Shown here: one piece after another, positions 21,447-28,936 of the stretch
How the letters are laid out: every line of letters starts with the position of its first letter
How positions within the stretch are numbered: the first letter of the stretch is position 1
NCBI RefSeq assembly: GCF_000012865.1
Contig: NC_007503.1
Span: 2,025,001-2,089,000 of the forward strand
DNA from: Carboxydothermus hydrogenoformans Z-2901
Lineage (GTDB): Bacteria > Bacillota > Z-2901 > Carboxydothermales > Carboxydothermaceae
Direction: 5' to 3'
DNA length: 64,000 nucleotides
Position numbers and translations under genes: made by a program
The notes under the pieces: model-generated
Told to the model about the DNA's origin: nothing
The model's database searches: none
Seen by the model: only the letters and a program-made list of their open reading frames with translations

Positions 21447-22679
21447 TTAACTCGCTTTCCCAAGGTACGAATATTTCCTAAACTCATAATAATACCAAAG
21501 CGTACCCAAACAATACAATATTGCTACCACCCAAAAAATTAACGGATAACCGCCAAGCCGGTAAAAAATCGTACTAATAGGTCCCCCAATAGCCCAGCCC
21601 AAAGAAAAAGTAGCTTGATTTAAACTTAAAATAAGTCCCTTCCGGGACGGATCCACTATCAACACGTTTAATGCTTGAAACAAGGGAGTCCCCGCATTCA
21701 TTAAAGCGTGGCGCGTTAGTAACACAAGTACCGCCCAAGATAGGTAGGGCACATATCCCAAATAAACGGCAAACGGTAAGGATATTAGGTTAAAGAAAAC
21801 AAACGCCCGCACCAAACCAAACCTGCGGGAAACTTTAGTTCCCATTACCATAGCTAAAGATGTTAACCCCTGGGCTCCGGCTAAAATAAGGCCAATAAAA
21901 GTATTGGAAACTCCAAAACGGTTTGCAAAATACAGGTTTAAATAGGGCATAAAGAGACCCGAGCCGGTACCAATTAAAAGCGAAAAAATAAAAATTGTTC
22001 TAAACACTGAAAATTCTTCAGTATCCGCAGATATTCCTTTAATTGTTGCCCAAAAATCATCTTTTATCTCTAACTTGCGACCCTTTTCCAAATGGGTTAA
22101 AAATAAATTTCCCGCCAAAAAAATTAAAGCCCCTGAAATTAGCGAGGCCCGGTAGCTGGCTTTAAGGGATAGCATTCCGGATAAAAGGTCGGATAACATT
22201 CCGCCTGCAAAATTGCCGAGCATTGAAGCGATCATAATTGAAGAATAGTGAAGCCCTATTAATTTTACTTCTTCTCCCGGTAGGGAAACTTCTGATAAAT
22301 AAGGCACACCATTTACCACTAATACCGAAAATCCCAACCCAAAAAGAAAAGCCGCCAAAATAATTAATCCGGGTTTTTCAAAGATTCCTTGGAAAATAAG
22401 CATTATTCCAGCAACAAAACTTCCCCAGAAAATAAAGCGGCGCCGTCCGTACCGGTCGCCGATATAACCCGCCGGAATCATAAATAACGCCTGGGCCAAA
22501 GAACTTGCTGCCACCACCTGACCAGCAACATCCATCCCCAGGCCCAGTTGCTTTAAGTATAAATTAAATAACACCTGGTAAACACCATAACCAAAATTCA
22601 CAAATAGCTGGGATATTAAAAATTTTTTTGCACTTTTTCCTGCAGTAATAAAGGATTTAATCAAAGACTGTTCCTTCAT
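21447..22679 (-). CDS. Major facilitator superfamily transporter
   Basis: This 410-residue protein has about 12 membrane helices in two halves. The loop between helices 2 and 3 carries the MFS motif A-like GYIGDRYGRRRFIFWGSF (about 77-94). A second-half counterpart is MGTKVSRRFGLVRAF. The substrate is unknown. The gene follows the AmmeMemoRadiSam locus after an 83-nt gap with no terminator, so it might be co-transcribed with it. It ends at its own terminator. Confidence 0.88.
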   Translation of the reverse strand: MKEQSLIKSFITAGKSAKKFLISQLFVNFGYGVYQVLFNLYLKQLGLGMDVAGQVVAASSLAQALFMIPAGYIGDRYGRRRFIFWGSFVAGIMLIFQGIFEKPGLIILAAFLFGLGFSVLVVNGVPYLSEVSLPGEEVKLIGLHYSSIMIASMLGNFAGGMLSDLLSGMLSLKASYRASLISGALIFLAGNLFLTHLEKGRKLEIKDDFWATIKGISADTEEFSVFRTIFIFSLLIGTGSGLFMPYLNLYFANRFGVSNTFIGLILAGAQGLTSLAMVMGTKVSRRFGLVRAFVFFNLISLPFAVYLGYVPYLSWAVLVLLTRHALMNAGTPLFQALNVLIVDPSRKGLILSLNQATFSLGWAIGGPISTIFYRLGGYPLIFWVVAILYCLGTLWYYYEFRKYSYLGKAS

Positions 22680-22762: not shown

Positions 22763-23755
22763 CTAAAGAATAATTTTAACTTTATTTTTACATTGCCGGC
22801 AGGTATCTCCTGAAAGTCCAGGAGTATCCACCCCAAAATAATCCCGCCGAATTAATAATGCCCCACAATGAGGACAAAAAGTATCATTGGAAGCATCGGG
22901 CAAATTGCCAAGGTAAACGTAGTTTAGATATTTCCTTGCTATCTCCCGGGCCCGGATTAAACTTTCCACCGGGGTAGGCGGTAAGTTAAACTTATAACGC
23001 GGAAAGTACCGGGAAAAGTGCAAAGGAATATCCCGGTCCAAATTTGCTAAAAACTTTGCCAATTCCTCAATCTGTTCGGGCGCATCATTAAGCCCTGGAA
23101 CGAGCAACGTAGTAACTTCGACATGGGCTCCAAAAGCTTTGGATGTTTCAATAGCCTCTAAAACCGGAGTAACGCTCCCCTGACAAATATCACGGTAATA
23201 CTCCTCGGTTATCCCTTTTAAGTCGATATTGAGAGCATCAATAAAAGGTAAAATTTTTTTTAAAGGTTCTTTATTGATAAAACCGTTAGTTACCAAAACG
23301 GTTTTAAAACCAAGCTCTTTAATTAAAGGAGCTGAAGCCTCTATGTATTCATACCAGACTACGGGCTCCGAATAAGTATAAGCGACCCCAATCATTTCTT
23401 GAGATTTATATCTTTGAGCAAGTTTTACCAAATCTTCCGGTAGAAGTTTTTCACCGGTTTCGGCAATTTGGGATATTTCATAGTTTTGACAAAAACCGCA
23501 ACGAAAATTACAGCCAAAAGTTCCTACGGAAAGGATAGTACTTCCAGGATAAAAGTGGTAAAGCGGCTTTTTTTCGATAGGATCTATATTTATAGCAGTT
23601 ATTTTCCCGAAGTTTAAGGAATACAATCGCCCGTTTACGTTCTTTCTCACCCGACAGCGCCCGGTTTTACCGTCTGCAATGCGGCAACGGTGCGGACAAA
23701 GACGGCATTGAACTAAAGAATCCCCTATTACCTCGTAAAAAACAGCTTCTTTCAT
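22763..23755 (-). CDS. amrS: AmmeMemoRadiSam system radical SAM enzyme
   Basis: This 330-residue radical SAM enzyme is related to pyruvate-formate-lyase activating enzymes. The [4Fe-4S]-binding CxxxCxxC is in GTFGCNFRCGFCQNYE (about 78-93). Before it is a cysteine-rich segment (CRLCPHRC, then GRCRVRKN), and the C-terminus ends in a ribbon (CPHCG and TCRQC). This arrangement is characteristic of AmrS. The family co-occurs with Memo-like and AMMECR1-like proteins; here both are fused in the gene 9 nt upstream. The reaction is not established. An anaerobic life style is implied. Confidence 0.9.
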   Translation of the reverse strand: MKEAVFYEVIGDSLVQCRLCPHRCRIADGKTGRCRVRKNVNGRLYSLNFGKITAINIDPIEKKPLYHFYPGSTILSVGTFGCNFRCGFCQNYEISQIAETGEKLLPEDLVKLAQRYKSQEMIGVAYTYSEPVVWYEYIEASAPLIKELGFKTVLVTNGFINKEPLKKILPFIDALNIDLKGITEEYYRDICQGSVTPVLEAIETSKAFGAHVEVTTLLVPGLNDAPEQIEELAKFLANLDRDIPLHFSRYFPRYKFNLPPTPVESLIRAREIARKYLNYVYLGNLPDASNDTFCPHCGALLIRRDYFGVDTPGLSGDTCRQCKNKVKIIL

Positions 23756-23764
23756 AAGGCCACC

Positions 23765-25165
23765 TCAAAAATACCGCTCTACCAAAAACCTTTCAATTTT
23801 CACCGGCTCGTCCGGCGCTATCCCTGCTTTTCTTTTGGCAATTGCAAGCTGTTTTTCTACCGTATCCACGCCTTCTAAATTGGGAAGTAATAGCCCGCGA
23901 CGAAATCCTTTAGAAACTATCACTCCGTATTTTTTGGGGTCTAATTCCGATAAATCCCTAACTTCTTCGGGAGGATAAAGAATATCCACCGAGTAGGTGA
24001 GTTCATCCAATTCGTGTTCTTCCACCGGCTCAAATCGCGGATCATGTAGTCCGGCTTCCAAACTGTTTCTGATAATCTCTTCTGCCAAGTTTTCGGTGGC
24101 AGGCGCTATCGTACCGATACATCCCCGCAGTTCTCCGTCTTTTTTAATGGAAACAAAGACCCCCGCTTTCCGCTTAAAAATCTCCGGTAGTGGATCCGGC
24201 GGAGTTATGGTTTTACCGGTACGTACGTAAGTTTCCAAAGCCTCCCGGGCAAGCCGCACATAGGGCGACTCCTTTTCCCGGCGCTTTTTTATTTCCTCCT
24301 GTTTTTTGGCAATTAATTTAGGATAAAAGTAGCGCTCTTTATCTTCCCCCCGGGCTTCGACTTCCGCCACCATATAACCGACCCCAAAAGGCCCTTCGTA
24401 GCTAAGCACCCTGCTTCTTACCTGATATCCTTCAAAAGCACCAAATAACATAATAAAGGAACGAAGACCGCACTCTCCTGCTTGCTCGGCAAAGCTTTTA
24501 TCAATAGTTAAAAGTTCCCAAGGGTCACCATGGGTAAAAATATCTACCATCAGCCGGTCAAAGTAACGCCCTGAAGGATCGTAACCAGCTGGGGCATCCA
24601 AAGTTAAACGGTGAGATAAATCCCCCGATGCTATGATAACAATTTTGCGCTTAAGTTCTGCAGCTACTTCTCTAATTATTGTGCCCAAACGGTAAATCTC
24701 GGAAAAAGGTATAAGCCCCTGGCTTATCACGACAAGTTTATACTTTTGCTCCGGATCTAAATAATAAAGCGGTACCATTGTTCCGTGGTCGAGAAAAGCG
24801 GGAACCCGCACTGCTCGAGCCAGGCTCTCATCAATCCCGGCAACCGCCAGCCCTTCTTGCTTAGCTGCTGTAAGTAAAGCTTGAACCAATTCGAGATCAT
24901 TTTGGTAGGAAAAGGTGATATGGGGTGCACCAAAACTTCCGAAATTTCCGTTCAGCTTCTCATTAATATTAACCGCGACCACATCGCTGAAAAGCGGAGC
25001 ATGGGGAGAAATTACTATTAATGTTTCCGGATTTATTTTCTTAATTTTTTCCTTGAGCTCTTTTAAAGCATTAATAGTATTTTGACATTTCTTTTCCTCT
25101 CCCCGCCCAATTTCCGGGAGAATTATCGGCGGGTGCGGTACTGCGATCCCATAAAGATTACCCAT
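23765..25165 (-). CDS. Fused Memo-like and AMMECR1 protein of the AmmeMemoRadiSam system
   Basis: This 466-residue protein has two domains. Residues about 1-275 match the Memo/LigB class III dioxygenase fold ([35 protein letters not shown]), with histidines placed as for a metal site. Residues about 295-466 are an AMMECR1 domain with the hallmark [10 protein letters not shown] and HDPRFEPV. In many prokaryotes these are separate genes; the fusion with a neighbouring AmrS strengthens the view that all three act on one process. It is 2 nt after a 41-codon cysteine-rich ORF and 9 nt before amrS. The function remains unknown. Confidence 0.9.
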
Positions 25166-25167
25166 CT

Positions 25168-25293
25168 TTATTCCTCCCCTTCAAATTCTCTGGGGCAAAC
25201 ATCCTTTGGTTCCTGGCAATATCCCTCACACAGTTCGCAACTGCCGTATTCGGCACAATCAAAGCAAACACAGGATAAACAAAGGTTCGGCAT
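25168..25293 (-). CDS. 41-residue protein with eight cysteines, first gene of the AmmeMemoRadiSam operon
   Basis: This short ORF opens at ATG 25293 with GGAGTGGTG upstream and ends 2 nt before the Memo-AMMECR1 start. The next gene's GGGGAGG lies inside its last codons, a sign of coupled translation. It has cysteines at 5, 8, 10, 13, 19, 22, 26 and 33 ([16 protein letters not shown], then [17 protein letters not shown]) and an acidic end. The spacing CxxCxCxxC plus CxxC could bind zinc or one or two iron-sulfur clusters, perhaps as an electron carrier or metallochaperone for the radical SAM partner. I recognise no family. Confidence 0.7.
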
Positions 25294-25346
25294 ATCACCA
25301 CTCCATGGAAGGTTTTCTTAAATTTTATTATATGTAATTTTAGCCA

Positions 25347-25383
25347 AAAATAAAATAAAGAAGGCTGTCTATTGCGACAGCCT
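25347..25383 (-). terminator. Rho-independent terminator of the OPT transporter gene
   Basis: The stem AGGCTGTC/GACAGCCT (25362-25383) is followed on the minus strand by a long T-rich run, 13 nt after the gene ending at 25397. Confidence 0.88.
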
Positions 25384-25396
25384 CCCTGAACTTTCC

Positions 25397-27455: not shown

Positions 27456-27473
27456 TCTTTTCTTAAAGTATAA

Positions 27474-27532
27474 AAATAGGGACAGTCCCTTAAACCACCG
27501 TTAAAGTTTAAAGATAGGGACTGTCCCTATTT
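27474..27532. repeat. 17-bp perfect inverted repeat at the cwlD 3' end
   Basis: AAATAGGGACAGTCCCT (27474-27490) and its exact reverse complement (27516-27532) flank a 25-nt spacer that itself has TAAAC/GTTTA arms. Each arm also contains the small palindrome AGGGAC-x-GTCCCT. The cwlD stop codon (27527-27529) lies in one arm. The structure can serve as a terminator for cwlD (a TATTTTTATA run follows on the minus strand), but its form also recalls REP-type repeats. Confidence 0.7.
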
Positions 27533-28246
27533 AAAATACTTTAAAACAGCTAAATAAATGGCAAAGCTTACTTTTTCCCGGTAATCGGGGTCTAACAAAA
27601 GCCGTTCCTCTTCAGGATTTGATAAAAACCCTACCTCGGCAATTGCCGAAGCCATCTGGGAGTTACGATTTATAAAATAATCGCCGGATTTAGCCACCCG
27701 GTTGGTATTTGCCAAAATTGTTTTAAAGCTGTCCTGAATATGCTCCGCCAACCTTTTTCCTCCACTATCTCCTTCCTGATAAAAAGTCTGAGCACCGCGG
27801 TACTTGCGCTCCGGAAAACTATTAACGTGAATGCTTATTAATACCTCCGCATGTTTTTCTTCGGCAAACTGGATGCGCCGGGCTAAGTCTTGTTTTTTCC
27901 GGATCGAATACCCCCGAATCCCCGGATCAGCCAAATCATAGTCACCAGAACGGGTAAGATAAACCTGGGCACCTGCCATTTGTAATTTAGCCGCCACCCG
28001 GCGAGCTATATCAAGGGTAATATCCTTCTCCACCGCCCCCTGTTGTCCTTTACACCCCGGGTCCTGACCTCCATGCCCTGGATCTATGACAATAATCCTA
28101 TTGGCAACCGCCACCGCTAAGACCCGTACTTCCTTATTTAACAAAATATTTCTAAAAACTGAACCTAATACCGTTAAAATTATAATTCCCACCATTACCG
28201 CCAGAACTTTTTGCCGAGTTATGCGATATACTTTAAAAATAATCAT
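27527..28246 (-). CDS. cwlD: N-acetylmuramoyl-L-alanine amidase, CwlD-like
   Basis: This 239-residue cell-wall amidase (Amidase_3) has one N-terminal membrane helix (about 13-30). Zinc ligands and catalytic residues are in IDPGHGGQDPG (H about 57), VEKDITLD (Glu) and ISIHVNSF (His). The C-terminal EVGFLSNPEEERLL carries the final glutamate. CwlD cuts peptide side chains from spore peptidoglycan so that muramic lactam can form in the cortex. A sigma-E-like promoter lies just upstream, consistent with mother-cell expression. The gene end runs into the inverted repeat. Confidence 0.88.
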   Translation of the reverse strand: MIIFKVYRITRQKVLAVMVGIIILTVLGSVFRNILLNKEVRVLAVAVANRIIVIDPGHGGQDPGCKGQQGAVEKDITLDIARRVAAKLQMAGAQVYLTRSGDYDLADPGIRGYSIRKKQDLARRIQFAEEKHAEVLISIHVNSFPERKYRGAQTFYQEGDSGGKRLAEHIQDSFKTILANTNRVAKSGDYFINRNSQMASAIAEVGFLSNPEEERLLLDPDYREKVSFAIYLAVLKYFK

Positions 28247-28417: not shown

Positions 28418-28936
28418 ATGAATCACAAAAATAACGACTTTCAGCTAAACTCCCCTTATCCTCCGGTGAAGGTTAAAAATCCCAATACCATGTATGCTGA
28501 AATTTTAATGGACGATTATGCAGGTACCGCCGGAGAACTTACCGCCATTACCCAGTACTTGTATCATCACTTTGAAAGCGAAAAAACAAATCCGCAAATT
28601 GCTAAACTTTTTGAAGGGGTAGCCTTAGTTGAAATGCACCACCTTGAAATACTCGCAAAGTTGATTATCGCCTTTGGCGGAAATCCTACCTATCGGGGTA
28701 GTTTTGGTAATAATTTCGCTTACTGGAGCGGACACTACGTTAATTATTCCCAAAATATACGGGAACAACTGATAGCCGATATTCACGCAGAAAAAACCGC
28801 AATCGTCAATTATCAGAAGCATGCAGAAATTATTGATGATCCTTACGCCCGGCCAGTTCTCTATAGAATTATTGAAGATGAGGAATTGCATTTAAAATTA
28901 TTTAAGGATGCCTTAAAAAGCTTAAGGGAAGGTTAA
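28418..28936 (+). CDS. Ferritin-like diiron protein, Mn-catalase/CotJC-related
   Basis: This 172-residue plus-strand protein has a four-helix ferritin-like pattern. A glutamate is in DDYAGTAGELTAITQYLYH, ExxH in LVEMHHLEIL, a glutamate in IHAEKTAIVNYQKH and a second ExxH in IEDEELHLKLF. The N-terminal extension of about 25 residues (SPYPPVKVKNPN) resembles CotJC-like spore-coat proteins and manganese catalases. A role in peroxide removal or metal handling is likely; the exact metal is not readable. It has a strong AGGAGGG site and is divergent from cwlD. Its stop lies in a terminator. Confidence 0.75.
   Translation: MNHKNNDFQLNSPYPPVKVKNPNTMYAEILMDDYAGTAGELTAITQYLYHHFESEKTNPQIAKLFEGVALVEMHHLEILAKLIIAFGGNPTYRGSFGNNFAYWSGHYVNYSQNIREQLIADIHAEKTAIVNYQKHAEIIDDPYARPVLYRIIEDEELHLKLFKDALKSLREG

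Follow-up and report, generated by a model that had tools for sequence, protein, structure and literature searches.

The window analysed here is a stretch of 64,000 nucleotides corresponding to positions 2025001-2089000 of the single contig of 2,401,520 bases that makes up the genome of Carboxydothermus hydrogenoformans Z-2901, an anaerobe. On its minus strand, at positions 25168-25293 with the stop codon included, lies an ATG-initiated open reading frame (ORF) encoding an acidic, cysteine-rich microprotein of 41 residues, with cysteines at positions 5, 8, 10, 13, 19, 22, 26 and 33. A sequence-only reading of this DNA had described exactly this 41-codon ORF and these eight cysteines; the strand, which it left unstated, is minus, and the plus-strand frame at 25168-25293 contains no such ORF. 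The window contains 456 ORFs of 25 to 80 aa, and none of the others has more than six cysteines; one other has six. Its TAA codon occupies positions 25170-25168, and two nucleotides separate it from the ATG (position 25165) of the next gene, which encodes a Memo(LigB-like)-AMMECR1 fusion protein of 466 aa (23765-25165, minus strand; PF02900, 1.7e-45; PF01871, 6.5e-49). The Shine-Dalgarno sequence of Memo-AMMECR1, GGGGAGG, lies within the last codons of the microprotein (25173-25179, minus strand), and GGGAGGA is kept in all three Carboxydothermus species that we compared. The earlier statement that the ORF ends 2 nt before Memo-AMMECR1 and contributes to its ribosome site was therefore accurate.

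The microprotein heads a gene string in which all three components of the AmmeMemoRadiSam system (TIGR04335, TIGR04336 and TIGR04337) are present: the Memo-like and AMMECR1-like parts, which are fused, and a dedicated radical SAM gene. The fusion protein scored above the cut-off with TIGR04335 (140.5 bits) and at 27.0 bits with TIGR04336, whose cut-off is 26. The radical SAM enzyme of the system, with 330 aa, follows at 22763-23755 on the minus strand (TIGR04337, 305.6 bits against a cut-off of 220), and a gene for an MFS transporter (21447-22679, minus strand; PF07690, 3.2e-38) comes after it, as it also does in C. islandicus (L051 8616-9848). Because the gap between the microprotein and Memo-AMMECR1 is only 2 nt and the Shine-Dalgarno sequence of the latter is inside the ORF, translational coupling of the two, and hence matched amounts of the two proteins, appears likely from the gene arrangement. 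The microprotein gene is probably co-transcribed with the Memo-AMMECR1 and radical SAM genes.

The signals ahead of the ORF are conserved. A GGAG sequence 7 nt before the ATG (25301-25304, minus strand) is the Shine-Dalgarno sequence of the microprotein, and GGAGTGGTG is identical in the three Carboxydothermus species. A TATAAT sequence (25327-25332, minus strand), about 33 nt upstream of the ORF, is a probable -10 element, and the block TTTTGGCTAAAATTACATATAAT is likewise identical in the three species; if it is used as such, the leader would be about 27 nt long. The sigma-70 scan did not flag this TATAAT, and no good -35 element is present. Further upstream, the terminator scan placed an intrinsic terminator of the OPT transporter gene at 25358-25387 on the minus strand, which sets that gene apart from the microprotein operon. 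Beyond the OPT gene, an inverted repeat from GGGACAGTCCC / GGGACTGTCCC lies between the OPT and cwlD genes (27463-27544) and gave only sub-threshold Rfam matches. Near cwlD, a gene at 28418-28936 encodes a 172-aa protein that is ferritin-like or manganese-catalase-like by appearance only, and it is conserved in C. islandicus.

The microprotein ORF was present at the same place in all three Carboxydothermus genomes examined, with identities of 90 and 80 per cent in the other two. The sequence-only reading had held that unconserved cysteines or a disrupted ORF in close relatives would count against it; all eight cysteines, together with 29 of the first 31 residues, are invariant in the three species and the ORF is intact in each. 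Differences fall mainly at third codon positions, and dN/dS is approximately 0.04-0.06; over the first 36 codons of the three species, a small sample for such an estimate, dN was 0.01-0.06 and dS 0.3-1.3 (NG86). Compared with Memo-AMMECR1, the microprotein has a similar dS and a lower dN, so the conservation lies in the protein and is not unusual in the DNA. This substitution pattern indicates that the microprotein gene is a genuine protein-coding gene under purifying selection. In C. islandicus (L051) the microprotein stands 2 bases ahead of Memo-AMMECR1, with the radical SAM gene next and then the gene for the MFS transporter. The place of the OPT transporter is taken there by an ORF of 152 aa whose N-terminus is signal-like (L051 5432-5890). 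Because the upstream neighbour differs in C. islandicus and the pair nevertheless persists, what the microprotein is linked to is the Memo-AMMECR1 operon, not the DNA further upstream. In the main text of the paper on the C. pertinax transcriptome, the microprotein, Memo-AMMECR1 and radical SAM genes go unnamed.

Outside the genus, the DNA ahead of 41 Memo-AMMECR1 loci belonging to other families in the same phylum (600 nt each, 379 nt in one) contained no comparable ORF. Six of these 41 upstream regions contain ORFs with 4-6 cysteines that are apparently unrelated to the microprotein. When 396 other genomes of the phylum were searched with a profile built from the three species, no stand-alone match was convincing as a relative. 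The two best-conserved heptapeptides were also scanned against 84,980 species, a search sensitive to close relatives only, and returned one confirmed relative, that of C. islandicus. A CxxCxCxxC scan of the C. hydrogenoformans genome yielded no second microprotein, and tblastn against plasmids gave no match. Weak matches of the microprotein or its profile elsewhere were mostly out of frame within ordinary genes (such as valS-like and rpoC-like ones), apart from one oxidoreductase described below, and the output of a cysteine-spacing DNA pattern run over 399 genomes was mainly low-complexity sequence. Three Memo-AMMECR1 matches contained in-frame stops or were in two pieces (G045:C25:15528-16355, G007:C4:29663-30469 and G013:C34:79322-80697); these are damaged copies, or else Memo and AMMECR1 are encoded there by separate genes. 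By these sequence searches, the microprotein is restricted to the genus Carboxydothermus, and distant forms sharing the cysteines alone may occur in other genera. Because all 41 Memo-AMMECR1 loci elsewhere are without it, the AmmeMemoRadiSam system works without the microprotein.

These results divide the earlier proposal of a partner for the radical SAM system. The short cysteine-rich ORF that was to be sought upstream of Memo/AMMECR1 genes was there in all three Carboxydothermus genomes and at none of the 41 other loci. A constrained, cysteine-rich gene does stand directly before Memo-AMMECR1 in each of the three species, a TIGR04337 gene follows Memo-AMMECR1 in the window, and a metal-type protein beside a radical SAM operon is plausible. 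A partnership with the widespread AmmeMemoRadiSam system as such is not supported.

Searches for known families and structures gave little. The microprotein matched no family of Pfam or NCBIfam at E up to 1, zinc-finger and ferredoxin families included; the HdrC and Fer4_17 profiles did not reach their cut-offs, and no PDB match or Rfam family was found. The AlphaFold2 model, computed from a two-sequence input, had a mean pLDDT of 47.7 and was uninformative. Like bacterial ferredoxins, which carry CxxCxxCxxxCP twice, the microprotein has eight cysteines, is acidic and has a proline after its last cysteine, but it lacks CxxCxxCxxxCP.

Beyond the genus, the best in-frame match fell on a segment of a GltD/HdrD-type oxidoreductase in an 850-aa frame (G177, L041), where the alignment pairs CLQCECKDCVGECEFLDDYCEHPKEL with a stretch of 28 residues. 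The microprotein has a motif in common with fused oxidoreductases of the GltD/HdrC type (NF045663; Fer4_17, PF13534; HdrC), namely that of their first iron-sulfur site: CLxCxCxxCx(3-5)C, with PK nine residues on, in an acidic, cysteine-rich segment. In a combined alignment of both groups, eight columns, C5, L6, C8, C10, C13, C19, P29 and K30, are invariant. The same segment occurs in approximately 40 other genomes of the phylum, in proteins mostly of 600-860 aa, and its context matches NF045663 and the 4Fe-4S domain Fer4_17. In those proteins it is a stretch of about 40 residues that shares the chain with a second cluster site and with FAD and CCG domains, whereas the microprotein stands alone, has two extra residues before Cys19 and extra cysteines at 22 and 33, and ends at residue 41 without the second CxxCxxCxxxCP site of the HdrC/Fer4_17 module. 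Among 399 genomes, the only short stand-alone carriers of the segment were the Carboxydothermus microproteins; an HdrC-like subunit in a 134-aa frame (G359) carries the segment plus a second cluster site. Two related proteins have a plain HdrC-type CxxCxxCxxxC at the same site (L148, CCECKLCMKEC; L149, CSGCNLCMQNC). These are stand-alone HdrC-like and HdrC-HdrD-like proteins (L148 935-1337 in G359 and L149 1083-2241 in G045), the former adjoining a CCG-type subunit, and the two loci are split relatives of the fused GltD/HdrD oxidoreductases. The consulted passages of the Stn transhydrogenase paper (PMC10482914) leave the cluster ligands at the related motif unstated.

When the microprotein was scored against a profile of the segment built without it, in a family picked after the search, it reached 8.8 bits, which was equalled by 86 of 5000 shuffles that preserved the cysteines and by 2 of 5000 full shuffles. 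All positions of CLxCxCxxCx3C...PK are present in it, with two residues inserted. Homology to the GltD/HdrC-type iron-sulfur segment is suggestive only; the likeness is mostly one of cysteine spacing, and the microprotein is better said to look like an iron-sulfur segment than to be a homologue of one.

We tentatively favour, at somewhat short of an even chance, the explanation that the gene encodes a lineage-specific microprotein with one or two metal centres, probably [4Fe-4S], which serves the neighbouring proteins as a small docked accessory for redox or cluster handling. The microprotein would probably be transcribed and translated together with Memo-AMMECR1 and the radical SAM enzyme of the AmmeMemoRadiSam system and would fold around one or two metal centres, a number suggested by the presence of eight invariant cysteines in an acidic protein of 41 residues from an anaerobic organism. 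The CxxCxCxxC...C segment, with the N-terminal cysteines, probably holds a [4Fe-4S] cluster, which is favoured at that site because the motif resembles an iron-sulfur segment. The microprotein may then dock on Memo-AMMECR1 or on the radical SAM enzyme, where it could pass electrons or protect or deliver a cluster. From the sequence we infer metal binding, the kind of metal, the redox role and the partner. The dN below that of Memo-AMMECR1, the invariant cysteines, the constant 2-nt linkage and the motif resemblance were counted for this explanation; the weak motif score, the lack of a family or PDB match, the low pLDDT and the absence from the 41 other loci were counted against it. The narrower proposal that, in Carboxydothermus, a free-standing iron-sulfur microprotein has become dedicated to supplying the AmmeMemoRadiSam proteins with electrons or to carrying clusters for them is unlikely in our estimate.

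The main rival, which we rate as less probable than a redox or cluster-handling accessory, is a zinc-binding structural or adaptor microprotein that mediates the assembly of Memo-AMMECR1 or its partner. The eight cysteines can suit zinc equally well: they are all invariant and fall into four pairs (CxxC, CxxC, CxxC and Cx6C) that fit two Zn(Cys)4 sites. C5/C8 with C19/C22, and C10/C13 with C26/C33, would give two interleaved sites in a cross-brace like that of the RING type. The likeness to the iron-sulfur segment favours an iron-sulfur centre, and zinc-finger families, as noted above, give no match.

We also considered that the ORF might be a cysteine-responsive leader peptide, in which decoding of cysteine codons, slowed by cysteine shortage, alters translation or transcription of the downstream operon. 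With eight cysteine codons in 41, and with coupled translation made likely by the 2-nt gap and the internal Shine-Dalgarno sequence, the ORF resembles the short polycysteine ORFs that stand directly before operons in mycobacteria and respond to cysteine (Canestrari et al. 2020, as cited in PMC9094748). Unlike what is described for those ORFs, the cysteines here are spaced and do not form a run, a Shine-Dalgarno sequence is present, and the constraint extends to the other residues: at non-cysteine codons alone silent changes were still in excess (P approximately 0.02, 0.0005 and 0.04 in the three non-independent pairs of species). The RNA is of ordinary stability (z = 0.01), the leader belongs to no Rfam family, and a terminator would not fit between the ORFs. 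The constraint outside the cysteines, the ordinary RNA stability and the spacing of the cysteines make a leader peptide less likely, and we regard it as improbable.

Just as doubtful is the idea that the gene is real and has no functional tie to its neighbours; it might then encode, for instance, a microprotein for general metal binding or redox work that came to lie before the operon. The presence of the microprotein in one genus only, where the operon is widespread, fits such an origin. Against it, all three species, the one with a changed upstream neighbour among them, keep the microprotein immediately ahead of Memo-AMMECR1, and its ORF bears the Memo-AMMECR1 ribosome site.

SCIFF is a cysteine-rich peptide linked to a radical SAM enzyme, and the microprotein is likewise small, cysteine-rich and near a radical SAM gene. 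That it is a ribosomal peptide substrate of the adjacent enzyme, modified and perhaps exported by the MFS transporter, is highly improbable, even with the peptide, radical SAM and transporter genes in one string in the two species examined, since the enzyme falls in a different family, TIGR04337, whose Memo-AMMECR1 partner genes in other genomes have no such peptide upstream, and almost the full length is conserved with no visible division into leader and core.

The accessory for redox or cluster handling would matter mainly for what it may reveal about its neighbours. We know of no reaction for the widespread Memo/AMMECR1/radical SAM trio, and the papers retrieved on the AmmeMemoRadiSam system itself mention it only in passing. 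As the microprotein is confined to one genus, what it can teach in general is limited. It also illustrates how easily a conserved metal-type microprotein can be missed. Being locked to the trio in one lineage, it is a cheap experimental handle. Should the microprotein prove to bind a cluster and to dock on a member of the trio, this would suggest that the reaction needs electrons or cluster repair and would point to the recipient protein; if it proved to be a dedicated donor or carrier, it would open a first way into the redox chemistry of Memo-AMMECR1 and of the radical SAM enzyme that partners it.
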